From: Mya arenaria
Lineage: Eukaryota; Mollusca; Bivalvia; Myida; Myidae
Assembly (NCBI RefSeq): GCF_026914265.1
Contig: NC_069125.1
Span: 71,130,046-71,194,045, forward strand
DNA: 64,000 bases
Direction: 5' to 3'
Under the pieces are notes generated by a model. It was not told the DNA's origin. It saw nothing but the letters and a program-made list of their open reading frames with translations, and searched no databases. Every line of letters starts with the position of its first letter. The stretch's first letter is position 1. Both the position numbers and the translations under genes were made by a program. Below, piece by piece: positions 10,517-64,000 of this stretch.

Positions 10517-13500
10517 TCACGTGATGGTGGTGTTGCCAGGAGTGATGGTAGTCTGGTTGGAGATGAGGTCCGTAAAGGCTGTCGGAAGTTCTTTTAACCC
10601 GAAATACTCGGCTCCCCACGTGTTCACACCCAGCGTCAGAATGAGTACAGATAAAATGTTCATCACAAACCCTGCCCGCATCTGTAACAAACAAAACCAG
10701 ACTGTACACGAGCTGTCACAGACACGTGACAAATGCCCGATTTGGGCCTTGTTGTACTAATAGTTATTTTTATAATATGAAGGTTACTTGAATAGATTGT
10801 TGTAACTGACATATTGACCTGAAGTGGGACGATTTTTTTATTCTGTGATAAAAATACAAATGGGACATGAATTATTACTAAGAAAACCCTATCCATATTG
10901 TATAACGTTGACCTCCAAGTTTAATCTTGACCTTTCAGACAAGAGCAGGAATGTTATGCGCGGCACACCCCGTGTTGCTCTATAATTGTGTGGAAATTGA
11001 TTGAGATCTACATTGATGAAATTCCATTAATAATAACACAGCTATTGCTTAAACGAAAGGACATACGAACAGTGCGTTTGCAATGTACCCACCCACCCTT
11101 CGTAGGCAAATGAACTCGGATACCACATACATGTATAGCTATATTGGCCTGTAGCGATTTTCTTGAAGTGCTTTAAAAGAAATGGAAAATAATGAGTCTT
11201 GTCACTTTTCACCAACATAATTAGATAATACTGTTATACATGTTATACACCGCTGAATAAACAATAGGTTACACTGACCATCTCTGTCATTGAGAAGTAC
11301 CCCAGCACGTACACCATAGCGTTGGGCGGCGTTGCCACGGGCAACATGAAGGCATACGATGTCGCCACCGCCGTAGGAATCATCAGGTATAAAGGGTTAA
11401 CGCCGATACTCAGCGCCTAAAGAGACGGTGTAAAAACAGTACTCACGTAATCTATATTCCGTCCAAGAGAAAAACATTAGCAAGGATGACCTTTGAACAA
11501 TTAATGATAAAAAGTTTATACAATTTATGGTATGTAATAACAAACTTATAATATGGAAAGCAAACGTTTAGACCTTCCGATATATCCAACCCTACTCACC
11601 AATTCTGCTATGATCGGAAGAACTAAAGTGCACGTGGCAGTGTTTGTGACTACTTCGGTGACAAATGACGTCAACAGCGCCACGAGCAATGACATCAACC
11701 AAACCGGAAGATCCTGGAAAACCGACAGCGCCTCCCGAATAGACACCGACAGGCCTGACGTCTGGGAGAAGTAAAACATTTAATCTACGCCGTTTCTGTA
11801 ATTGCACACCAACGACCGTAGTATTTGCAGCATGAATTATATCTATCAAGTTTACAAATAAGAGGTAAATATCATGCCTCCAACATGAAAGACGCAATGC
11901 GATTGGTCCAGGACTGGTCAGGCGGTGACCCCATATTTTTCCGTATTGGGTCACCAAATTTATATCGTACCATAATGGCGTCTATTTTCCGATTCCGATG
12001 AATAAATGAATCATTTAAACATGTTAACAGGTTGTGGAAGTGATATATACGTTACGGGGTTAGTAGGTGACCCGATATGGGATATACGGGGCGCAGGAAA
12101 CCATATTCGGGCTAGAGCTTTGCTCTCATCCGATATGGTTTCCTTTGCCCGGTATATCCCATATTGGGTCACCTACTAGGGCGTATCTTGCAAGCCGCTG
12201 CAACGGCGAATCCTCCGCCGAACAGCAGGAAGAGACCCATTTGGCTTGCAATAGAATACATGTAACACCAAATTGCAACCGTAATGTGATGCCTTAAATG
12301 TGAGATGAACATCATCGGGGCGTCCGCATAACACAGAACACGTCAGAGTTTTTATTTCAACGTTATGCACCAGTCAATTGTAACCACGTCCCCAGGTCCA
12401 GGGGTATACCGGAGATAGCCGGGGAAATGGGCCGGGTTTTTACTATCAAGATGGCCCCGCAGTGCCGGGTGAATGCAGTGGTTTTGTCTTCGCGTCAAAA
12501 ATAACGGGGAATGGGCCTTACCTAGGGTCCCTGGGATGCGGGTGGATTTTACCAGCAGTTCGTTTCCCGCAGGGCGGGGATTATACCCGGGCTTTGCTGG
12601 ACCTAAAATTAAAGTCCCCGCTTTTCCGGACCTGGGGGGGGGGCGTGGTTACAATTTACTTGTTGCAGTATGATGCAACACCTACAGCGGCGTAAGGTTG
12701 TACCTTGCAAGCCGCTGCGAGGGCGAATCCTCCGCCGAACAGCAGGAACAAACCCCATGGCAGCCTGTCGTTGACGCTTCGCCACGTGAGCAAAGGTTTT
12801 ACCGCCACCGGTCGATTTTCTGAAGGAGACGTTTATATACCTCAATAGTTGCTTAATTTAAAAAAAATCTGTTTAATGTTAACCATTTGTCTCCGACGAA
12901 TGCTTTCATATAATTGACTGTTCTTGGTACGTGAGGAAATTTGTCGATTGAGCGTACGAGTGAAGGAATGGTCCTATTGATAGAGCGAGTGAGGAAATGT
13001 TTCGATTGATTGTACGAGTGAGGGAATGTACGAGTGTGGAAGAGTGGCTATTAAATGTACGAGTGAAAGAATGTGCATAGTGATTGTAATAGTGAGAGAA
13101 TGTGTCTATTAATTGTACGAGTGCAGGAATGACTCTATTGATTGTCGGATTGCAGGAATGTGTCTATTAATTGTACGAGTGCAGGAATGTGTCTATTGAT
13201 TGTCGAAGTGCAAGAATGTATCTTTTGATAGTACAAGTGAAGTTATGTGCCTATTGGTTTATAGTTTATAGTATATACTAATATACTTTTGCTCAATTGT
13301 GACGAAGGCTTTATAAGATCACTCTCGATTCCGTTACCTGGGCAGAAACTAACCTATTGATCGGGATGGAGTGTACGAGTGAAGGAATGAGCCTATGGAT
13401 TGTATAAGTGAAGGAATGAGCCTATGGATTATACAAGTGAAGGAATGAGCCTATGGATTGTATAAGTGAAGGAATGAGCCTATGGATTGTACAAGTGAAG

Positions 13501-16500
13501 GAATGAGCCTATGGATTGTATAAGTGAAGGAATGAGCCTACGGATTGTACAAGTGAAGGAATGAGCCTATGAATTGTATAAGTGAAGGAGTGAGCCTACG
13601 GATTGTATAAGTGAAGGAATGAGCCTATGAATTGTATAAGTGAAGGAGTGAGCCTACGGATTGTATAAGTGAAGGAATGAGCCTATGGATTGTACAAGTG
13701 AAGGAATGAGCCTATGGATTGTACAAGTGAAGGAATGAGCCTACGGATTGTATAAGTGAAGGAATGAGCCTACGGATTGTATAAGTGAAGGAATGAGCCT
13801 ACGGATTGTATAAGTGAAGGAATGAGCCTATGGATTGTACAAGTGAAGGAATGAACCTATGAATTGTATAAGTGAAGGAATGAGCCTATGGTTTGTATAA
13901 GTGAAGGAATGAGCCTACGGATTGTATAAGTGAAGGAATGAGCCTACGGATTGTACAAGTGAAGGAATGAGCCTATGAATTGTACAAGTGAAGGAATGAG
14001 CCTATGGATTGTATAAGTGAAGGAATGAGCCTATGGATTGTATAAGTGAAGGAATGAGCCTATGGATTGTATAAGTGAAGGAATGAGCCTATGGATTGTA
14101 TAAGTGAAGGAATGAGCCTATGGATTGTACAAGTGAAGGAATGAGCCTATGAATTGTATAAGTGAAGGAATGAGCCTATGGATTGTATAAGTGAAGGAAT
14201 GAGCCTATGGATTGTATAAGTGAAGGAATGAGCCTATGGATTGTATAAGTGAAGGAATGAGCCTATGGATTGTACAAGTGAAGGAATGAGCCTATGAATT
14301 GTACAAGTGAAGGAATGAGCCTATGAATTGTACAAGTGAAGGAATGAGCCTATGGATTGTACAAGTGAAGGAATGAGCCTATGAATTGTATAAGTGAAGG
14401 AATGAGCCTATGGATTGTATAAGTGAAGGAATGAGCCTATGGATTGTATAAGTGAAGGAATGAGCCTATGGATTGTATAAGTGAAGGAATGAGCCTATGG
14501 ATTGTATAAGTGAAGGAATGAGCCTATGGATTGTATAAGTGAAGGAATGAGCCTATGAATTGTATAAGTGAAGGAATGAGCCTATGGATTTTATAAGTGA
14601 AGGAATGAGCCTATGAATTGTATGAGCAAGGGAATGTGTTTATTGATTGTACGAGTGAAGGAATAAGCCTATGTAATGTACGAGTGAGGAAGTGTGCCTA
14701 TGGATTGTACGAGTGAGGGAGTGTGCCTATGGTTTGTATGAAGGAGGGAATGAGCCTATTGATTGTAAGAGCGAGGGAATGTGTTTATTGAGGGTACGAG
14801 TGAAGAAATTAACCTAATGATTGTACGAGTGAAGGAATTAGCCTATGGATTTTACGAGTGAGGGAATTAGCCTATGGATTGTACGAGCGAGGGAATGTGT
14901 CTATTGATTGTACAAACGAGTGAATGTGTATATTGATTGTACGAGTGAGGGGGGTGCCTATGGAGTGTACGAGTGAGGGGGTGAGCCTATTGATTGTACA
15001 AGTGAGGGGGTGTGCCTATGGAGTGTACGAGTGAGGGAGTGTGCCTATCGATTGTACGAGTTAAGGAATTAACCTATTGATTGTACGAGTAAAGGAATTA
15101 GCCTATTGATTGTACGAGTGAAGGAATTAACCGATTAATTGTACGAGTGAAGGAATTAACCTATAAATTGTACGAGTGAAGGAATTAACCGATTAATTGT
15201 ACGGGTGAAGGAATTAGCCTATTGATTGTACGAGTGAAGGAATTAACCGATTAATTGTACGAGTGAAGGAATTAACCTATAAATTGTACGAGTGAAGGAA
15301 TTAACCGATTAATTGTACGAGTGAAGGAATTAACCGATTAATTGTACGGGTGAAGGAATTAACCGATTAATTGTACGAGTGAAGGAATTAACGGATTAAT
15401 TGTACGAGTGAAGGAATTAACCGATTAATTGTACGGGTGAAGGAATTAACGGATTAATTGTACGAGTGAAGGAATTAACCGATTAATTGTACGAGTGAAG
15501 GAATTAACGGATTAATTGTACGGGTGAAGGAATTAACCTATTGATTGTACGAGTGAAGGAATTAACCGATTAATTGTACGGGTGAAGGAATTAACCGATT
15601 AATTGTACGGGTGAAGGAATTAACCCATTGATTGTACGAGTGAAGGAATTATCCTATTGATTGTATGAGTGAAGGAATTAACGTATTGATTGTACGAGTG
15701 AATAAATTAGCCTATGGATTGTACAGTGAGGGAATGTGCCTATGGATTGTATTAGTGAGTGAATTTGACTATTGATTGTACGAGTGACGGAACATGTCTA
15801 TGGATTGTACTATTGAGTGAATGTGGGTATGGATTGTACTATTGAGTGAATGTGTGTATGGATTGTACGAGTGAGTGCATGTGTATATGGATTGTACGAG
15901 TAAGTGAATATGTCTTTTGATTGTACGGAATAGGTATTGTGTCTATATTGAGTGTACGAGTGAGGGAATGTGTCATTTGATTGTACGATTAAAGAAATGT
16001 GCCTATGGCATGTACCAGTGAGGGAATGCGTCATTTGATTGCTTGAGTTAGGGAATGTGCCTATATGGATGGTACGAGTGAGGGAATGTGCCTATGGATT
16101 GTACGCGTTAGGGAATGTGCCTATGGATTGTACGAGTTAGAAAATGTGCCTATGGATATTGTACGAGTGAGGGAGTGTGTCTATTGATTATACAAGTGAG
16201 GCCGTACTTATAGTAAAAAAGTCTGGGAGGTTAGCGGGGATAAGGAACAGCAGTGCCGTCACCAACGTGGGTGCCGCCGAGTCTGTCACGTAACTGAAGC
16301 ATAAAGTTAAACAAGTCATTTCTTTAAGTGCCTTTGTGCGCATGGTCACCAAACTTTCAATTTAGAAACCACAAGGTCGACCTTGACACAGGCGAGGGCG
16401 AGTGTAAAACTTGAAAGAGAAATATAGTTAATTAAACTTTACCGATATTACTGTGCTCGAATATGTCGTATTTGTATAAAATCAGGAAGTAAAGTATATG

Positions 16501-19500
16501 CATACCCATTTGGAAAGGCGTTTCCCCAGCCACCGGCGCCGCCAAGGTCGCGTGATACCCAGAGGACTATGAGTAGCCCGAATAACATCAAAACCGTCAC
16601 TTCCGGGAACCTGTCAAACAGTAGCGAAACAAATAACATTGGCTTTTAGAAAATAGGCAGACATATAAAGCAACAAAATACGGAATCATTATTTCAGGTT
16701 TGAAACACAGGAAGGCTTAGTTGTTTAGAATAATGAACCATATTTGCATTCTTAACATAAACATAAACATAAATGAGTTTGGTACCTGACTGGTCCAAGA
16801 GACTTGTATTCTTCTTCGATATAGCTACGAACCCTCGACATGGATTTTGGCCTCATTTTGAAACAACTGTAAAGAAAGACAGATAGCTATTCTTATATCA
16901 CGATGTCGTCAGTGTGCATTATATTTTTTTAGAGCGTCAAGAGATGCTTTATTGTTCAGTAAAACTGCATCAACGGATGTTTAAGCTTCTAATATATAAT
17001 CTGAACGTCCGGCATTTATGGATATCATACCAGAATAACTACATGTACATGGTGTTAATAGTGTAGTCCTATGCCATCATTTGCTTAAGGGGCGGGCATA
17101 CCTGCATCCCCGGAAGTGTAGTGAAAGCCAGAGGAAGAGTGTGAGGAAGACGAGCAGGGACACGGGGAAGCCCAACACCAGCCACGTGTTGAACGTCAGT
17201 CCGGAATCCACGCCCCGCTCTCGGAATATCCTAAATCAAAATGAATCAATCCACCATGCAACTGTGAGCAGTGAAACGTTTAATACAAAACACGTAGATG
17301 TGGAGTAGACCTGCTGACAGAAGACACATATTTTGAATATAATGTTTTATTATGTATCCTTCAATACGATAAGTGCACCCATATTCTAATTCTTTATTTC
17401 ATCAATACTCACTGGTCGGCCTGTCCCTTGAGGATGATGTTGGAGGAGCATCCGGTGAGGGTGGTGGTGCCACCGATGCTGGCTGCGTACGCAATGCTGA
17501 TGGTCATCGCCTTGGCCAGCTGTCGGTGTTCCCTGTCCGCCTTCCCGGTCCGGTTGTTCTCACTGTCGCTGCTATCGTCCTCAGTCTGGCGGTAACTTGT
17601 GTTGTCCGGCCTTTATAAAAATACAATGAACAGTCAAGAAAAAAAGATATTTGTCAAAACTTTAATAAAATAATATCGTTGTGTAAAACGCATTGAATCT
17701 TACTTACTGATGTATCACATTGCTTTTCGTTTATGTATTTTCCGCAGTTTTTGCGTATTTTTCCAATTCGAAATTTACTGGGTTTGCCAACACGTAAATT
17801 TCAGTAAATTTGAAACAAGCGTCGGTATATATTTTAGCTGTAATAATCACGTAAGTTTAGTAAAGACGGCGGGCTATAAATGTATCTTGATAATACAGTT
17901 ACATGATGGTATCGATTCGCGATAAATCATGAGAATACGCGATCGCATGATACGAGCCATAATGTTAATTTTATAATAATATGATTTTGTTAGAACACTG
18001 TTCGGGATTTTCAAAATTTCCGTTTAGCATCTGCAGGTTAACAAAAAATACATCGAATGCCAGAGGAAATACATCATAGGTAAGCAGTTTCGTTCTATGG
18101 TTTATTACTCAAAACTATGAACTTGAAATAAATCATTTCAGGTTTTGATTAACACAAACAAAACCCTGACTTATCATATATCGAATATGTTTTTAATGCC
18201 ATTCAATGATAATACAGGCTTAGTAAAAAGTTCATTATGTTTTCATGATATACCCATTTGGTGCCTCTCCTCTTAAAATATATTAAAATATAAATTACCA
18301 ATCCAAAACTTTGATTGACTTTGTATTTAATTACACCATTTAAATGATTCCAAATTCTGGTAAAAACACAGTATAATAATAAATCACGACGAAAACACAT
18401 TTATTGTGCTTGAGGAATTACCGAGCCTACCTTACCTTTCAGCATGGATGACGAGCTCCGTGTCCACCTGGGCCTCCACCAGGCTGAGATTGTTGGGCGG
18501 CTGCAGGGAGTGCTCCTCCTCTACAACCAGAAATACACACATACACACGCGCACCTAATAATAGTCCGTCATTCCCGTAACAATAACTTGGTTTCAAGGC
18601 AAGCGAGATGACATGCTTCAGCCATTGTAATAAAAAAGTTAAAAACGGTTAATGTCAATGGATTGCATTTTGCACAGGTTTATAGAGAGTGACTGTTGAT
18701 TTGGTGACACGTTCAACGGCAGAAACGTTAAAACGTTCCGTTAATGTGAATCATATTGACTAGGAGTACTAACATTAAATTATGAACTGCCGGATAACTT
18801 TCAAATCAATTTACAAACTGCCTACTGTACGTTTTACATGCCGCAGGCACATTGCTTACACCACATGCACCATAGCCGTTTACTGGATACCTCGTCTCTG
18901 AAACAACAGTTGTGCTTTTTCAAACAAGCAAGACATTGATATATAGATCAACAGAACAAACATATCTCCAATGTGTTATGTGATTTATAATTTTCAGAGA
19001 GAATAAAATATGCCAAAAAAGCGACCAGAGTAAGCATGTTCCTAGACCACACGCCATGACAATACAACAACGTACAAATAAACATTCAACACCGACGTCA
19101 TGCTGGAAACACAATTGTACTGGACTTTAATATAGCTGTCATGCGTGTACAAATCATGCACTATCACCAACATCACTACCAAGCACGAACCACTGGTGTG
19201 TAGCGGGTTGTCGTCACTTTCCTTGGCTAGCTCGTGCAGCAGAGCGTCGGCGATTGGCGTCATCATAGCCGTCGTTGCGATGTTGGACGTCCACATGGAC
19301 AGGAACCAGCTAGGCAGCATCATCCCGACCATCAACCTGTATGGATGGTGCTAGCGGTCAGATACGGTTGTAGAAACACAGTACATAAACACCAGCTTGA
19401 CAGCATCATGGTCAGCCTGCAGTTGCGGGGCTAGCGGTTTTACAGTAGTGTACACACATAATTTAGTGGTATAAACATAGATTACGAACCAGCTTGACAG

Positions 19501-22500
19501 CACCATTGCCAACATCAATCTGCAGTTGCGGTGCCAGCAGTCAGTCATACAGTAGTGTACACACAAAACATTTTTGTAATGGTAAAACATAGAACAGGAA
19601 TTAGCTTGACGGCATAATAATGTTGGTGTCCGCACTTATTTGACCCACCAGCTCCTCCCTTTTTGTAAACCTTTTTGTTAAAAGTCCAGGCGTTAGTTTC
19701 ATTAAATGAGTGTCGGGCGATGGTTATTTTTTTCCGGCTTTCTCGATTGTCATTGGCCCACAAATATGTGCGAACCCCAAAGTACAAACAAAGCCATACA
19801 CCAGATAGGCAGCATCATACCCAACATCCACTTGCATCTGTGTGACGTTATTGAGGTTAAACGTGTGACGTGACGGAATAACTACACACTGTAGTATATT
19901 TCAACCCAAAAAAATCAGCGTGGTGCTACGAAATATTATAACAACATTGACTACAATACATAGACTGAGGTTGTTAGACACATTACTGACATGTAAGCTA
20001 AAATCCAAGGAAAAAAAGTGACTCACGTAAACAGTGTTTTGCAATAAAATTCAGCTATCCGTGCAATAGTGCCCTAGACCTGGGACAAATAACAAATCCT
20101 AATCCCAGCCTAGACAGTCTGGTTGGAAATAGTAGATGATGTAAAATGATAACAGGAGACATCGAGAAAGTCTTGAAACGTTATTTTTATTGTATAATAA
20201 ATCTTGATGCCAATCATATACATAGGTGGTGGCGGCCGTCGAAAGCTCCCCGCCCCTTTTGGCATACTGTGCTATTGAATTGGGGTTATGTGAAACAAAA
20301 ATTGTAAACAAAAATGGAGTTCATGTGTGTATACTTTGAACCTTTCGATATGGTTTACCTTATCCTGTATACCAAAATAAATAATAAATTTAATATCAAA
20401 TAGATAAGTGAGTGCTAAGGGACCTGGGGCGGGCTGGGGATATTATCTGGTAATGTGTAGATGCCAAAACCATCAGGATATCGTTAAAGCACTAGCAGAT
20501 TCAGGCAACCACACCCTCCCAAATTGACAGTGGAATTTTTATGTCAATATTCAATTTAGTCGAGAAATTATGCATACAATTACCCCAAACAAAACCATTT
20601 TATATTAGTATTAGAAAGGTATTGACATGTTTACGCCCGTGTAAATGTCGGTGCTTTTGTTGGTAGAGGAAACGTCCACTGACCTGGTTGGCTGGGTTCC
20701 AATGACGAGGAGCAATTTGAGGGCGATCCGCTTATGAATGTTCCAGTGCTCCACCGCCACCGCCATGATCAACCCACCAACAAACAACATCGATGAGTCC
20801 TGTTCAAACGACATAGTTATTCGTGCTAAAAAGAATCGGCAAAAAGATTACTGTCGATGTCAGGTTAAATTGGTGGATATATATTTACCGGCTTATAATA
20901 CCGAAGTTACTGAAGGAGGCCTTTTTCGGTGCCTCTCATACCACCACTACCTAGATAGCATGCAGATGTTGGGCGAACGTCGAATATTGGTAGGCCTGTT
21001 GGCTTATGTTGCCGTTGGCTAGAATGCATCGGGCCTGTATTAGAGAAATGACGCAAACTATTTAACATCGCAGTTGGTTTGTCGATGTCGGGCTAACGTT
21101 AGGCCAACATTGCAGTCAACATAACTTCACTAGTTATTTAACATTATAAAAATGATCATAAAACTATCATGTTTTTTCCGTATAAATCATAATTTCTTGA
21201 AAAAAGTGTCCTTAAGTGTTCGATTTATTATCATGGGTTTAAATATGTTTTAAAGTTAATTTATTCAAATTGATATTTGTACTACGGTGGCACAGTGGTA
21301 ACATATATACTAGTATGTGATTTGTTTAATCTCGGGACACGCCTTACTAATTCCTCCCCGCGACATGGTATGTTGTGACAATGAAAACGTTAGACCGAGG
21401 CAACGACTTACTAACTCGTTACCATGACTGAGTAAGTCGTGACCTCGACTTTGAGATCACCAAGCATGGGAACGAGTTGGATAGTAGTGGCCATGACATA
21501 ACTTAGTCGTTGCCGCGAAATAACCAAGTCTCGGGAACTGATAAGTAAGTCGTGGCCACGAGAATTAAAATAATATATACGTTGGACCATTATTTAATAA
21601 CCCAAGTATATGTGTCTTAAATATATATATCTTAAAAATAGTTTAAAACAAAGTTTGGAAATCTTGCGCTAAATTCTTTTCCTCAGAGTTTTATAGTTTA
21701 ATTTACAAAAAAACTCCTTTTTGTCCGGAAACACAAAGATATACATCCTGTAATGATACAGAAGCTTTAAATGGAACAAAACAACATAACTATAGCGCAA
21801 AACTCCGACGAATCGTCAACGTGTGGTCAATTTATGTTGGACCAACACTGGTAATGTCATAACGCCGACAATAATGCAGACGTCGGCCCGAGGCCTGGAA
21901 CCAACTGTGACTCGATTTGCATCATGATATTGGGCTAACGTTGAACAAATACATTGGGGCAACATCATTTCGTAACCGTAGATTTCTTCCCACTGAATAT
22001 GAAATAGACTATTCGGTCAAGAACAAGCTCAAATAAATTGGTAAGAAGTATAAACTTAAAAACGTTACCGGCATGCCGGAATTTATGTATGACTCAGAAA
22101 ATCAACTTACGTTAATATATGCAGATGAGACCTTTTTGCCTGTCATGACACCTGTGAGTGGAAATATCAAAACCGGAAGAAGGGCGGTGACGGCGATCGG
22201 AAACGCCTCCGTGGCCCAGTACACCGCCATTAGCAACAAACAGAAACCCGCCGCCGATTGCTGCAAGATGGAGACAAAACCGGTGAAGTGTTAGTAGAGA
22301 ATCAGATATATCACAACGTCGCCTAGGGCGACCAGCACACACATACACACAGATCGAACACCCGCCGTTGGGTCAAGCAGTGCATGGTTTTTATTCGAAA
22401 TTGCTCCTGTCAAGTAGTTCCTAGATGAGGTGGCTGATTGACGTGTACGTACCTTTGTCCCTTGGCGTGTACGTACGTTTGTCCATTGACGTGTACGTAC

Positions 22501-23797
22501 TTTCATCCCTTGGCGTGTTCGTACCTTTGTCTCTTGGTGTGAGCGTACCTTTGTCCCTTGACGTGAATGTACCTTTGCCCATTGGCGAGTACGTTCCTTC
22601 GTCCCTTGGCGTGTACGTACCTTTGTCCCTTGGCGTGAATGTACCTTTGCCCATTGGCGAGTATGTTCCTTCGTCCCTTGGCGTGTACGTACCTTCGTCC
22701 CATATCGTTTACGTACCTACGTCCCATATCGTTTACGTACCTTCGTCCCTTGGCGTGTACGTACCTTTGTCACTTGGCGTGAATGTACCTTTGCCCATTG
22801 GCGAGTACGTTCCTTCGTCACTTGGCGTGTACGTACCATTGTCACTTGGCGTGAATGTACCTTTGTCCATTGGCGAGTACGTTCCTTCGTCACTTGGCGT
22901 GTACGTACCTTTGTCCCTTGGCGTGAATGTACCTTTGCCCATTGGCGAGTACGTTCCTTCGTCCCTTGGCGTGTACGTACCTTTGTCCCTTGGCGTGAAT
23001 GTACCTTTGCCCATTGGCGAGTACGTTCCTTCGTCCCTTGGCGTGTACGTACCTTTGTCACTTGGCGTGAATGTACCTTTGCCCATTGGCGAGTACGTTC
23101 CTTCGTCCCTTGGCGTGTACGTACCTTTGTCCCTTGGCGTGAATGTACCTTTGCCCATTGGCGAGTACGTTCCTTCGTCCCTTGGCGTGTACGTACCTTT
23201 GTCACTTGGCGTGAATGTACCTTTGCCCATTGGCGAGTACGTTCCTTCGTCCCTTGGCGTGTACGTACCTTTGTCACTTGGCGTGAATGTACCTTTGCCC
23301 ATTGGCGAGTACTTACCTTTTACACTTAGCTTGTACGTACCTTTGTCCCTTGGCGTGTACGTTCCTTCGTCCCTTGGCGTGTACGTACCCTCGTCTCTTG
23401 GCGTGAACGTACCATTGTCAATTGGCGTGTACGTTCCCTTGTCCCTTTACGTGTACGTACCTTTGTCCCTTGGCGTGTACGTACCTTTTACCCTTGGCGT
23501 GTACGTACCATCGTCCCAAAGCGTGTACGTACCTTCGTCCCATATCGTGTACGTACCTTCGTCCCTTGGCGTGTACGTACCTTTGTCCATTGGCGTCTTT
23601 GCGTGTACGTACCTTTGACCATTAGCGTTTAGATACTTGTAGACATTTTTTGCCTTGGCTTATGTGTGAAGTTGTCCTTATAAAATGCGTGTACGAACCT
23701 GTGTTCCTTGGATAAGTAGCGGAAGCAGCAGCAGCGGTGTCAGTACAATCACCAACACGCTACGTAACGTCCACAGCGTCCTTACTACGTGCTTCAT
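10517..23797 (-). CDS. SLC13 family Na+/di- and tricarboxylate cotransporter, complete, 14 exons
   Basis: Exons in gene order: 23797-23699, 22260-22111, 20799-20684, 19336-19191, 18520-18436, 17610-17413, 17230-17102, 16866-16786, 16610-16506, 16293-16208, 12819-12704, 11761-11600, 11416-11279, 10681-10517. They sum to 1776 nt, giving 591 residues, within the usual SLC13A2/3/5 length. Landmarks are N-terminal VTP-like [33 protein letters not shown], the first Na+-binding motif [10 protein letters not shown] (Asn at about 140), [33 protein letters not shown], the second motif [12 protein letters not shown] (Asn at about 477) and [13 protein letters not shown]. Both Na+ motifs deviate slightly from SNT (SNI and TNT). 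The C-terminus ends in two N-glycosylation sequons (about 579 and 587), as expected for an extracellular tail. The exon 4 donor is ambiguous between two in-phase sites 3 nt apart. The role is Na+-coupled uptake of citrate, succinate or similar at the plasma membrane. Substrate and exact paralogue are not resolvable. Introns 1 and 10 contain long minisatellites. Confidence 0.93.
11875..12179 (-). mobile_element. Palindromic MITE-like element with ~190-bp tail
   Basis: A near-perfect palindrome spans about 12064-12179, with arms starting TAGGTGACCCGATATGGGAT and mirrored as ATCCCATATTGGGTCACCTA around a short GAGCTTTGCTC centre. It is joined to a 190-bp tail containing ATAGACGCCATTATGG (reverse strand) and ending near 11875 with a CCTCCAACATG-like motif. 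The same tail and palindrome recur at 36206-36735. No coding capacity. It lies in an SLC13 intron. Confidence 0.75.
12187..12250 (-). pseudogene. Decayed duplicate of the 3' half of SLC13 exon 11
   Basis: On the minus strand it reads [18 protein letters not shown], against [19 protein letters not shown] in the real exon at 12819-12704. The expected donor GT after AAG is AT here, so the copy probably cannot be used as an exon end. It lies about 460 bp downstream of the true exon in the same intron, with a GC-rich MITE between them. Confidence 0.85.
12376..12655. mobile_element. GC-rich MITE with terminal inverted repeats
   Basis: The left end reads AATTGTAACCACGTCCCC followed by AGGTCC. The right end is GGACCTGGGG, a G run, then GCGTGGTTACAATT, the inverse. 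The inner sequence is far more GC-rich than its neighbours and non-coding. No clear target duplication was found. Confidence 0.75.
12927..16203 (+). repeat. 29-bp minisatellite, about 110 copies, filling SLC13 intron 10
   Basis: The unit is approximately GAAGGAATGAGCCTATGG plus ATTGTATAAGT, 29 bp. A homogeneous block covers about 13375-14620. A second variant block from about 15050 to 15640 (GAAGGAATTAACCGATTA core) has alternating CGAG/CGGG versions, suggesting higher-order structure. A non-repeat island sits near 13260-13370. On the minus strand the array starts only a few bases after the exon 10 donor at 16207 and ends about 110 bp before exon 11. Confidence 0.95.
19387..19845 (-). repeat. 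Degenerate tandem copies of the SLC13 exon 4 acceptor side
   Basis: At least four diverged copies of the acceptor and first ~40 bp of exon 4 (real exon start 19336) lie upstream in the intron near 19391, 19490, 19602 and 19802. One copy reads [12 protein letters not shown] and another MLGMMLP on the minus strand, against [12 protein letters not shown] in the exon. Two copies keep CTGCAG at the acceptor position. They are too short and diverged to be full alternative exons. Confidence 0.75.
20930..21970. repeat. Repeat-derived intron segment, GGGCTAACGTT and TAAGTCGT motifs
   Basis: Two ends of this SLC13 intron 2 stretch share motifs such as GGGCTAACGTT and CCAACATTG or CCAACACTGG (about 20960-21120 and 21830-21960). 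Between them, about 21340-21560, is a short-period degenerate repeat of AACTCGTTACCATGACT and TAAGTCGTGGCCACGA type. This suggests a short element interrupted by or built around a simple repeat. Boundaries are uncertain and no gene is visible. Confidence 0.45.
22430..23640 (-). repeat. 24-bp minisatellite, about 50 copies, in SLC13 intron 1
   Basis: On the plus strand the basic unit is GTACGTACCTTTGTCCCTTG plus GCGT, 24 bp. Most of the array is ordered as a 72-bp higher-order unit of three variants (GTACGTACC, GAATGTACC and GTACGTTCC types). Because 24 is divisible by three, long open frames run through on both strands, including 397 codons on the plus strand; these are artefacts. The unit matches the exon 1 donor junction at 23687-23711 (see findings). 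Confidence 0.95.
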
Positions 23798-60300: not shown

Positions 60301-62308
60301 TTTAATTAAACTTCATACAGTGTTGGATCATAATGAGACGGAGTGCAGTGTACAGGAACCGCAGTTCTATTTCAGCTAATTACAGAGTTACTGCCCTTTG
60401 CTACTTTTTCTTGTCCGGAGCATGACGTGAAAACTATTGGATAGAATGTAATAAAACTTTATACAATGGTACAGCACAATGCGAAGGAGTTCAGTGTACA
60501 TGAATCATTACACTATTTTAGCAAATTACAGAGTTATTGCCTTTTTCTGTGTTTTTTTGTCAAACTTTTGTCTGTACAGTAACTTGAAAACTACTAGATG
60601 GAATTTCATAAAACTTCATACAATGATAAATCATAATGAGAGGCAGCGTTCGGGGGTATTAATCACCTTCAGTGATAGCTCTAGTTTCTTGTAACTTGCG
60701 CTTGTGTGTGTTTAAACTGGCAGAAAGATTTCTTAAAGTAAAGAGTGGGTTTTCTGATTGTGTTGATATGCTGTGTTTCAGTGTTGATCCTGGAGGAGAT
60801 TGTCATGTGTTCTGATTGAGTTTCTATTGGTGTTTCAGCATTAATCCTTGAGGAGATTGCCATAGACAGTCACCAGAAGGAGATGGAACAGTCTCTCCTG
60901 TCAGAGGCCCAGGAACTACACCTGCAGTCGCTCGCACTTGCACGTAAGGCATTTGGGGAGAACAATGTACAGACAGCAAAGCACTATGGCAACCTTGGAC
61001 GCCTTTACCAAAGCATGCACAAATTTGAGGTAGGAATGATATCAGTGCCCTTGTTTAATGCATGAGTTTGTGATACGATTGTTTCAAAACAACTTTCCTT
61101 TGACCAACACTTCAATTTTCCAAACATAACGAAGCTTAATTCAATTCTAGACATGATGAATCAATGTTGCTGTAACATGTTCTTGCAAGTCTAATTGTTA
61201 AGATTTACATAACGTGTTTGTAAAATGTGTTTTAATTCTTTTTATTTAATGACTTTAACAATTCGCACATGCAGAAGGCGGAGGGCATGCACCTGATGGC
61301 TATTGAGATCAAGGAGCGTCTGCTGGGCTCGGAGGATTACGAGGTGGCACTGTCCGTTGGCCATCTTGCCTCGCTGTACAACTACGATATGGAGAAGTAT
61401 GACGAGGCAGAGAATCTCTACCTCAGGTCTATAGATATAGGTGAGCAAAACATAGCAATGATGAAATCAAGGTTTACAGATACTATAAGAACATGTTAAG
61501 CTTGTCTTATTTTTTTATAAATTATTTATGAAAGTTAATTATGCTATATTAGATTTTCTTAATCTTGGATAGTTGGGCAATTTCATGGGCACAAAAACAA
61601 AAATAAAATAAAAGATTAGAACTTTGTTATCTTTTTATGCCCCCACAAAGTGGCGGCATATAGGGTTGCCCTTGTCCGTACGTATGTCTGTCTGTCTGTA
61701 CGTACGTACGTCCCGAAGATTGTTTCCGATCTAATTCTTGAAAACCGTTTGTCCAATCCTCACCAAACTTTAAACACATGTTTGTGACCATAATATCTTG
61801 ATCAAGTTCGATAGTCATGGAAATCGCTTTAGTCATTTAGGAGTTACGGCCCTTTTTTGCCAAAAATACTTCAAAAATATATGTTTCCAATCTAATTCTT
61901 GAAAAGTATGTGTCCAATCCTCACCAAACTTTACATACATGATTGTGACCATAATATCTTGTTAAGATTTGATTTACAGTTGTCAGAGCAGGTTCCTTTT
62001 GAAAATTACAATTTAATGCAAAAATAGGTAGCGTGCATGTTGATTAGTATATACACATCCAATTGACAGTATTTCTGTATGTTTCAGGTAGGAAGCTGTT
62101 TGGAGATGGTTACTCCGGCCTGGAATATGACTACCGCGGCTTGTTACGCCTCTACCGCCAAGTCGGAAACTATGCCATGGCTGATAGATATGCCAATATC
62201 CTACAACAGTGGAATCGTATTAGGGATAGAAACAATTCCATAGAAGTTAAACCATTAGAGTTCACATTGTCAGCAGGGCTTTCAGAACTTGTGACAGAAT
62301 ACTTCTAA
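45686..62308 (+). CDS. APPBP2: Amyloid protein-binding protein 2, complete, 13 exons
   Basis: Exons 45686-45826, 46826-46914, 47149-47306, 47612-47735, 49665-49833, 51073-51162, 51461-51528, 55501-55606, 58321-58445, 58844-58929, 60839-61029, 61275-61440 and 62088-62308 join in phase to 577 residues (human 585). The N-terminus ALEWVPDKLYNMAVSAIV and LPENVQFDIYYKLYNKGRLCQLG match human APPBP2. The C-terminal half carries TPR repeats, with ALDIRQAVFGGNNLHVAVAH, KAFGENNVQTAKHYGNLGRL, DYEVALSVGHLASLYNYDM and GYSGLEYDYRGLLRLY nearly as in human. The protein binds the APP basolateral sorting signal and microtubules, and serves as a substrate receptor of Cullin-2 ubiquitin ligases. The N-terminal VHL-box-like LPENVQFDIYYKLY segment is preserved. 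The start has a good context (AAGATGG). Introns 4-7 and 10 are swollen by repeats. Confidence 0.97.
45940..46361. mobile_element. 422-bp MITE with perfect 18-bp terminal inverted repeats
   Basis: The left end GGTTGACGGTACATTTCC and right end GGAAATGTACCGTCAACC are exact inverse complements. Target duplication is unclear. It lies in APPBP2 intron 1, 24 bp before the next repeat. Confidence 0.8.
46385..46715 (+). repeat. Dispersed repeat, copy 2 (uninterrupted)
   Basis: Second copy of the 43118-43830 repeat, in APPBP2 intron 1, lacking the 359-bp insertion. It starts TTCATTTTGTTCCTTAAACG and runs through CTATCTAGCAGGTGCCCGTT to GGGATATGGACGCTT. Confidence 0.85.
48377..49517 (+). repeat. Dispersed element with AGCTCGACTATTCGAAGAATA head, tandem core
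   Basis: The head TTTTAGCTCGACTATTCG and the tail TAGTCGAGCGCGCTGTC ... GGCTCTTGT bracket about five units containing GTTAAAGTTTTAGGGCAAGT, CAATTGACTTAATACTTCAC and TTATGGCCCCTGATTGACT. It lies in APPBP2 intron 4. The head and tail are shared with 50115-50527. Confidence 0.85.
50115..50527 (+). repeat. Shorter element with the same head and tail, different core
   Basis: The head TTTTAGCTCGACTATTCG and the tail TAGTCGAGCTCGCTGTC ... AGCTCTTGT match the 48377 element. The core is made of two copies of GTTAAAGTTTGCGTACCACC. It lies in APPBP2 intron 5. Confidence 0.8.
51291..51342. repeat. (AT)n microsatellite
   Basis: Uninterrupted AT repeat of about 26 units in APPBP2 intron 6. Confidence 0.95.
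52400..53180. mobile_element. Non-autonomous hAT-like element, 781 bp
   Basis: The ends CAGGGATAATTCTA and TAGAATTATCCCTG are perfect inverse complements, flanked by CCTAAA on both sides (52394-52399 and 53181-53186). The CAGGG termini suggest hAT, although a 6-bp duplication is shorter than the usual 8. A 63-codon open frame inside shows no transposase motif. APPBP2 intron 7. Confidence 0.8.
53370..55105 (+). repeat. TATGCCCCCC-ended element with tandem ~145-bp core
   Basis: It opens TATGCCCCCCTTCATAGAAG with GTCGGTCGGTCCGTCCGTCC and closes GGGGGGGCATA, inverted to the start. The core is about ten units containing TCCGAGTGATAACTCAACAA, CATGGCCCTCAAACTTGAC, GACCAGTAGATGACCCCTAT and CAAAGGTCAAGGTCACAGTG. 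APPBP2 intron 7. Open frames on the minus strand are by-products. Confidence 0.85.
55629..55760. mobile_element. Fold-back MITE, ~132 bp
   Basis: The left arm TTAATGCACAGCGTAGCCAA and the following GTCGTTAGTGATAATTGGCC pair with the right arm, which ends TGGCTATGCTGTGTATTAA. APPBP2 intron 8, 22 bp after the exon 8 donor. Confidence 0.75.
56219..57060. mobile_element. Non-autonomous TIR element with TA flanks, 842 bp
   Basis: The left end CCGTAGATGACTGGTT, with TATAAGACACAGGC nearby, is mirrored by the right end TATAACCAGTCAGTCATTTA then CGG. TA lies on both sides (56217-56218, 57061-57062), as for Tc1/mariner/pogo-type elements. No transposase frame. APPBP2 intron 8. Confidence 0.7.
59205..59641 (+). 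repeat. Near-identical tandem duplication, 224-bp period
   Basis: Copies at 59205-59428 and 59429-59641 both carry AGTAAAAAATATTCAATGGC, the CCCCCGACAAAC head and TTGTCGGTCGGTCCGTTGCA. Only a few differences were seen, so the duplication is recent. APPBP2 intron 10. Confidence 0.85.
59642..60650 (+). repeat. Tandem ~145-bp dispersed repeat, about 7 units
   Basis: Continues from the CCCCCGACAAACGAAGTTTG head at 59330. Units contain GAGCATAACTTGAAAACTAC, AGCACAATGAGAGGAAGTGC and GTTATTGCCCTTTGTTAC. Same family as 4436-5260. Confidence 0.88.
60751..60838 (+). repeat. Ghost copy of the APPBP2 exon 11 acceptor side
   Basis: TGTGTTTCAG then TGTTGATCCTGGAGGAGATT at 60772-60801 duplicates GGTGTTTCAG then CATTAATCCTTGAGGAGATT at the real exon 11 start (60839), 57 bp downstream. 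The ghost reads LILEEIVM and then meets a stop. Confidence 0.85.
61636..62035 (+). repeat. TATGCCCCCACAAAGTGG repeat fragment
   Basis: Head TATGCCCCCACAAAGTGGCG and CGTACGTATGTCTGTCTGTC, followed by two units containing CCAATCCTCACCAAACTTTA and GTGACCATAATATCTTG. It resembles the other CCCCC-headed families in this window but is a separate family. APPBP2 intron 12. Confidence 0.75.
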
Positions 62309-62723: not shown

Positions 62724-64000
62724 CTAGTTGTTTACAGTATCTTGGCTAGTGTTGTATACCGTATCTTGGCTAGTGTTGTTTACAGTATCATGGCTAGTGG
62801 TGTATACATTATCTTGACTAGTGTTGTTGACAGTATCTTGGCTAGTATTGTTGACAGTATCTTGGCTAGTGTTGTATACAGTATCTTGGCTAGTGTTGTA
62901 TACAGTATCTTGGCTAGTGTTGTTTACAATATCATGGCTAGTGGTGTATACATTATCTTGACTAGTGTTGCTTACAGTATCCTGGCTAGTGGTGTATTCA
63001 TTATATTTGCTAGTGTTGTAAACAGTATATTGGCTAGTGTTGTATACACTATCTTGGCTAGTGTTGTATACAGTATCTTGGCTATTACAGTATAAAGTAT
63101 ATGACCAGTGTTGTATACATTATCTTCGCTAGTGTTGTATACAGTATCTTGGCTAGTGTTTAATACATTATCTTCGCTAGTGTTGTATACAGTATCTTGG
63201 CTAGTGCTGTATACATTACCTTGGCAAGTGTTGTACAGTATCTTGGCTAGTGTTGTATACATCATCTTGGCTGGTAATGTATACAGTATCTTGGCCAGTG
63301 TTGTATACATTTAGTCATTATCTTGGCTAGTGTTGTATACATCATCTTGGCTAGTGTTGTATACATTATTTTGGCTTTTCTCATATACATCATCTTGGCT
63401 AGTGTTGTATACATCATCTTGACTAGTGTTGTATACAGTATCTTGGCCAGTGTTGTATGCATAATCTTGGCTTGTGTTGTATACATGATCTTGGCTTGTG
63501 TTGTATACATCATATTGGCTAGTGTTGTATACATCATCTTGTGTATACAGTGTCTTAGCCAGTGCCACACATTATCTTGGCTAGTGATGTATACAGTACC
63601 TTGGCCATTGTTTAAAACAGTATTTTAGCTGGTGTTGTAAACAGCATCCTAACTAGTGTTGTGTACAGTATCTTGGCTAGTGTCATACACGTTATATTGG
63701 CTAGTGTTGTATACAGTATCTTGTTGTATTCATCATATTGGCTAGTGTTGTATACATCATCTTGACTAGTGTTGTATATAGTATCTCAACTAGTGTTGTA
63801 TACAGTATCTTAACTAGTGCTGTATACATTATCTTGGCCAGTGTTGTATGCATAATCTTGGCTTGTGTTGTATACATGATCTTGGCTAGTGTTGTATACA
63901 TCATTTTGGCTAGTGTTGTATCCATCATCTTGACTAGTGTTGTATACAGTATCTTAACTAGTGTTGTATACAATATCTTTACTAGTGTCATACACATTGT
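62724..64000 (+). repeat. 24-bp minisatellite, about 50 copies, continues past window end
   Basis: The unit is approximately TATCTTGGCTAGTGTTGTAT plus ACAG, 24 bp, with frequent short insertions and deletions. Because the period is a multiple of three, frames such as VVYSILAS (plus) and YTTLAKIL (minus) stay open; they are not genes. Confidence 0.93.

Follow-up and report, generated by a model that had tools for sequence, protein, structure and literature searches.

Tandem repeats that run across exon-intron boundaries have been described in lancelet genes as 'mirages'. They occur in Adh3, in the globin genes BflGb6 and BflGb9 and in the troponin C gene, with similar repeats in PGBD5; both 5' and 3' boundaries are concerned, many of the copies have AG/GT (here and below, the slash marks the border), and splicing is reportedly undisturbed (PMC3087553, PMC3902484). 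In human IFI6 (6-16), several donors come from a minisatellite that adjoins a splice site (PMC4526556), and two further papers describe the gain of introns when AGGT is duplicated in tandem in the genome (PMC4974935, PMC3443670). Here we describe a 24-bp minisatellite in intron 1 of an SLC13 transporter gene of Mya arenaria, which matches the exon 1/intron 1 junction of its own gene. The gene lies in a stretch of 64,000 nucleotides (C4:71130046-71194045, hereafter the window).

The 24-bp unit falls within the range of the Adh3 mirage units (10-72 bp). As in the lancelet mirages, the tandem unit spans an exon-intron boundary and the true boundary is itself a member, despite a marginal 62-bp gap, and many copies keep splice signals (AG/GT in 32 of 49 units). 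The SLC13 array differs in its copy number of about 50, in its higher-order period and in its occurrence in a mollusc and in an SLC13 gene. It is best filed as a further member of the lancelet class of boundary minisatellites. In IFI6, two downstream repeat units are reportedly used as donors (PMC4526556), whereas the SLC13 decoys would bring a stop codon. The case resembles intron gain by AGGT duplication in the local duplication of splice-site sequence, although no new intron is claimed for SLC13, where the intron position is common to paralogues. A limited literature search returned no mollusc boundary minisatellite in titles or abstract openings, and the accessible part of a mollusc paper (PMC3862624) has 'minisatellite' only in the title of a reference. 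The SLC13 case would extend boundary minisatellites beyond lancelets and human IFI6, and the array would be a large natural test of how the spliceosome chooses one donor among dozens of downstream near-copies.

The exon 1/intron 1 junction and the 24-bp array

The SLC13 gene occupies about 23.8 to 10.5 kb of the minus strand; its exons, about 13 in number, were read one at a time with their ends placed by eye. The joined protein matched SLC13A3 (E = 9.9e-126), SLC13A5 (2.1e-120) and SLC13A2 (7.1e-120) over nearly the full length; the query was joined by eye, and about ten residues at the exon 2/3 join are probably intronic. The coding part of exon 1 (23699-23797; 33 codons, MKHVVRT...LIQGTQ) aligns with the N-termini of SLC13A2, SLC13A3 and SLC13A5 and ends at the true donor CAG/GTTCGT (23699/23698). 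Intron 1 (22261-23698) is in phase 0, and the array makes up most of its length. Exon 2 (22111-22260) begins at 22260 behind the acceptor CAG/CAATCG, and its end, AAC/GTAAGT (at 22111), was placed by eye from the alignment to human SLC13 proteins.

Wrap-around alignment and unit counting placed 49 full units at 22438-23625, with the consensus CCAAGGGACAAAG/GTACGTACACG on the gene strand, in agreement with the approximately 50 copies given in a preliminary description of this window. The junction unit (23688-23711), which comprises 13 exon and 11 intron bases, is identical to the array unit at 21 of 24 positions. When the flanks were included, the repeat path ran from 23711, which is 13 bases inside exon 1, to 22438. 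The array also has a 72-bp higher-order period, B-A-C, in nine triplets (seven consecutive), in which B is a strong donor, A is dead (GT to GA) and C is weaker.

Over 25 bases across the splice donor (23711-23687), the junction matches the array unit at 22 positions, as the preliminary description had reported. The chance of such a match, which that description proposed to compute, was assessed in several ways. The best match to the junction in the window outside 22411-23720 was 16/25 on the plus strand and 17/25 on the minus strand, and three Markov random controls of 1,499,976 positions each gave at most 19/25. Genome searches covered 1.216 Gb in 18 contigs, and their repeat counts are lower bounds. 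Allowing up to three mismatches, the junction pattern was found at five places, the junction itself and four array units (control, 0), and all 30 places of the unit pattern were inside the intron 1 array (backward control pattern, 3). When 311 bases of the array served as the query, seven genome matches were obtained, all in the same array. Junction and array are homologous beyond what chance would give, and this homology is confined to the locus. A chance resemblance, for which the random-sequence and genome-wide controls fall short of the 22/25 match, is exceedingly improbable. A dispersed satellite or transposon-borne repeat, the objection that the preliminary description had itself raised, was rejected, because every genome match (7/7, 30/30 and 5/5, again as lower bounds) was in intron 1 or at its donor.

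Direction of the duplication

We consider it likely that an ancestral exon 1/intron 1 junction seeded the array, which then expanded in this lineage. The same origin had been suggested in the preliminary description, and it draws support from the locus-specific homology, from paralogue introns without the array and from an exon end that reads as SLC13 coding sequence; the direction from junction to array thus seems favoured. Judging by the alignment to SLC13 proteins, the end of exon 1 is SLC13 coding sequence. The exon half of the array keeps coding sense, reading in the exon frame QGTK in 18 of 48 units, QWAK in nine and QVTK in six.

Paralogues were searched for by SLC13 exon matches (38, three of which were the gene itself). 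Exon 1 was sought at five paralogue loci and read in four (C4 at 0.883, 0.957, 55.664 and 55.689 Mb; the C17 paralogues were left unread). The exon 1 sequences at 55.664 and 55.689 Mb come from weak matches, and their intron starts are approximate. In the paralogues at 0.883 and 0.957 Mb, exon 1 ends, as read by eye, in LLVDGAGE and LLVEGVGE with the donors GTAATG and GTAATT, and the protein position at which exon 2 begins is that of the SLC13 gene described here. Three paralogue introns were read over their full length (715, about 1550 and about 830 bases), and none of them has a tandem array. The fourth, partly read, has a 29-bp array of six copies with another sequence and a short 10-bp array, and the best match to the 24-bp unit in any paralogue intron was 16/25. 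Since the paralogues have an intron at this position too and the introns read are without the array, the position predates the array.

In the reverse order of events, the array would have come first, behind an older donor, and the exon end would have shifted into the nearest unit, so that the last 13 exon bases would be satellite. Many array units are ready-made donors, and exon 1 lacks one or two codons compared with its relatives, which leaves room for such a donor capture. However, the end of exon 1 still aligns in place with SLC13 proteins, exon 2 begins at the family position, and the genome searches did not find the array at any other place, so that no other source is known for it. We regard donor capture as rather unlikely.

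Three bases are private to the junction and occur in none of the 48 in-phase units, which have G (48), A (47, with T in one) and A (48) at these places. The array states correspond to a synonymous GGG for GGA, to AAG (Lys) and to A at donor position +3; Lys is the residue aligned there in SLC13A1, SLC13A2, SLC13A3 and SLC13A5, and A at +3 is also present in two close paralogues. At each of these three bases, the state in the array seems older or better than that in the junction, which would make the array a 'fossil' of the former junction.

Some observations weigh against the junction as the seed of the array. In addition to the shorter exon 1 mentioned above, there is a Glu in place of Lys at the last exon 1 residue of fly INDY and the two close paralogues, so that the 'fossil' argument is no more than suggestive. 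The 62 bp separating the junction unit from the array (23626-23687) are only marginally repeat-like (score reached by 4 of 300 shuffles), and the scores of the two halves alone were reached by 148 and 30 of 300; the first clear array unit past the junction is 23625-23594 (0 of 300). Finally, by U1 duplex energy, only one of the 49 units, AAG/GTAAGT, is as strong as the true donor (U1 genes were located with RF00003, and the U1 5' end was read from one locus of this genome).

If the junction was the seed, about 24 bp (13 bases at the end of exon 1 and 11 at the start of intron 1) would have been duplicated in tandem in this lineage, and slippage or unequal exchange may have enlarged the array to about 50 copies. 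The 72-bp three-unit repeat would have spread in the middle of the array, where the long run of B-A-C triplets points to homogenisation by exchange. As the donor is copied with the units, intron 1 now holds dozens of sense-strand sequences that look like it. The true donor would have diverged since, being weaker than most copies by a simple matrix, not by U1 pairing energy.

Donor-like sites in the array

The preliminary description held that nearly every unit contains a donor-like AAAG/GTACGTAC and that dozens of potential decoy donors lie downstream of the true one. The former was overstated, as the exact AAAGGTACGTAC is present in 14 of 49 units and AAG/GTACGT in 18. The latter stands in so far as GT is at the boundary position in 38 of 49 units, with AG/GT in the 32 noted above, although the count had been put too high. 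Scoring each unit as a 5' splice site, another suggestion of that description, gave a divided answer. With a donor matrix of approximate human frequencies, 37 of 49 units score at least as high as the true donor, ten of the 37 only barely (5.29 vs 5.24), whereas the U1 energy places a single unit at that level. Donor scoring covered 10 of the 12 SLC13 donors (exons 4 and 8 were left out, and the exon 2 donor was misplaced in the scoring). Three U1 pattern matches were rejected as U1 genes, having no Rfam match. Among the U1 matches listed, 35 of 42 are in C12:65370154-65467697, many of them at spacings of about 1.3 kb.

Read-through past the true donor ends after 39 residues at the first in-frame stop (TAA, 23678-23680, minus strand), upstream of the array, and the nearest clear decoy is 86 bases beyond the true donor. 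Because this stop precedes the array, any use of a decoy would truncate the protein; on both points the preliminary description was right. Normal splicing, with the true donor chosen, most likely persists, since the true donor is the nearest to the cap and closes a short first exon, and a decoy would add at least 86 bases and an early stop. It has also to be considered that the array may represent an older, stronger donor, AAG/GTACGT, from which the working donor decayed to CAG/GTTCGT, so that position and not strength would decide exon 1 splicing and the array length, if polymorphic, would set the unproductive share; we consider this combination unlikely.

The array might instead be functional: a field of U1 sites, variable in length, could tune the output of SLC13 by unproductive splicing or guard intron 1 against early polyadenylation. 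Sites scoring at least AAGGTACGT are indeed dense, with 15.7 per kb in the array vs 0.17 per kb in 22130-16300, and the donor 9-mer seems slightly closer to the consensus (identity 0.924) than are the exon half (0.870) and the intron half (0.903) of the unit. However, GT is lost in 11 of 48 units and the +5 G in 11 of 48, the true donor is not distinct from the decoys in its folding, and lancelet mirages reportedly leave splicing undisturbed (PMC3087553, PMC3902484). A function of this kind appears very unlikely. Likewise, the idea that the decoys are hidden by self-pairing of GTACGTAC was rejected, as folding does not separate them from the true donor. The mean unpaired probability of the donor 9-mer was 0.40 (standard deviation 0.10) in the 49 units vs 0.34 at the true donor, and the folding of 300 nucleotides of the array gave -86.0 vs -74.0 (standard deviation 11.6) for shuffles.

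Other boundary copies and arrays in the window

Further copies of splice boundaries were found in the window. On the minus strand, the intron 3/exon 4 boundary has three degenerate copies upstream of exon 4 (19337-19895; aligned stretches 19365-19475, 19466-19590 and 19775-19895), and two of the three keep CAG at the aligned acceptor place. The exon 10/intron 10 boundary (12755-12700) has one 56-bp copy (91%), at 12183-12238 on the same strand. This copy is adjoined by a 119-column imperfect palindrome with TAGTAGGTGACCC ends (12061-12178), like a small inverted-repeat element. On the plus strand, a 57-bp tandem duplication (60752-60863) extends over an intron-exon boundary (...TTTCAG/) of a gene that we take to be APPBP2-like. 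Behind the last exon found of this gene, there is a 24-bp array of 53 copies (62727-63988).

Splice boundaries as a duplication hotspot were considered and rejected. A first scan, restricted to SLC13, had seemed to favour a hotspot: four of 26 exon ends had a score of at least 34, as did 20 of 300 random windows, all inside the boundary copies themselves. In a wider scan over parts of three genes, with the random windows kept outside the listed tandem arrays, a local copy (score of at least 34) was found for five of 44 boundary windows vs 89 of 600 random windows; in four of the five positive boundary windows, the match spans the boundary. The positions used in these scans were displaced by about 20 to 30 bases for the exon 2 donor and the exon 3 acceptor, and by 7 for the exon 2 acceptor. 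These genes simply abound in local duplications, some of which take in splice boundaries. Copies that bear exon sequence may also remain identifiable for longer, owing to the conservation of the exon.

Most of intron 9 is occupied by a 29-bp minisatellite of about 100 copies (12912-16201, minus strand), which extends from intron base +7 behind the donor ATAA/GTACGG to about 90 bp before the acceptor. All 24 of its genome matches, a lower bound, were at its own site. It was rejected as a second junction-derived array, as it starts at +7 and has no exon sequence. At the other end of the window from the APPBP2-like gene, open frames at 1-1600 resemble, by eye, a retroelement with a tyrosine-recombinase-like part.
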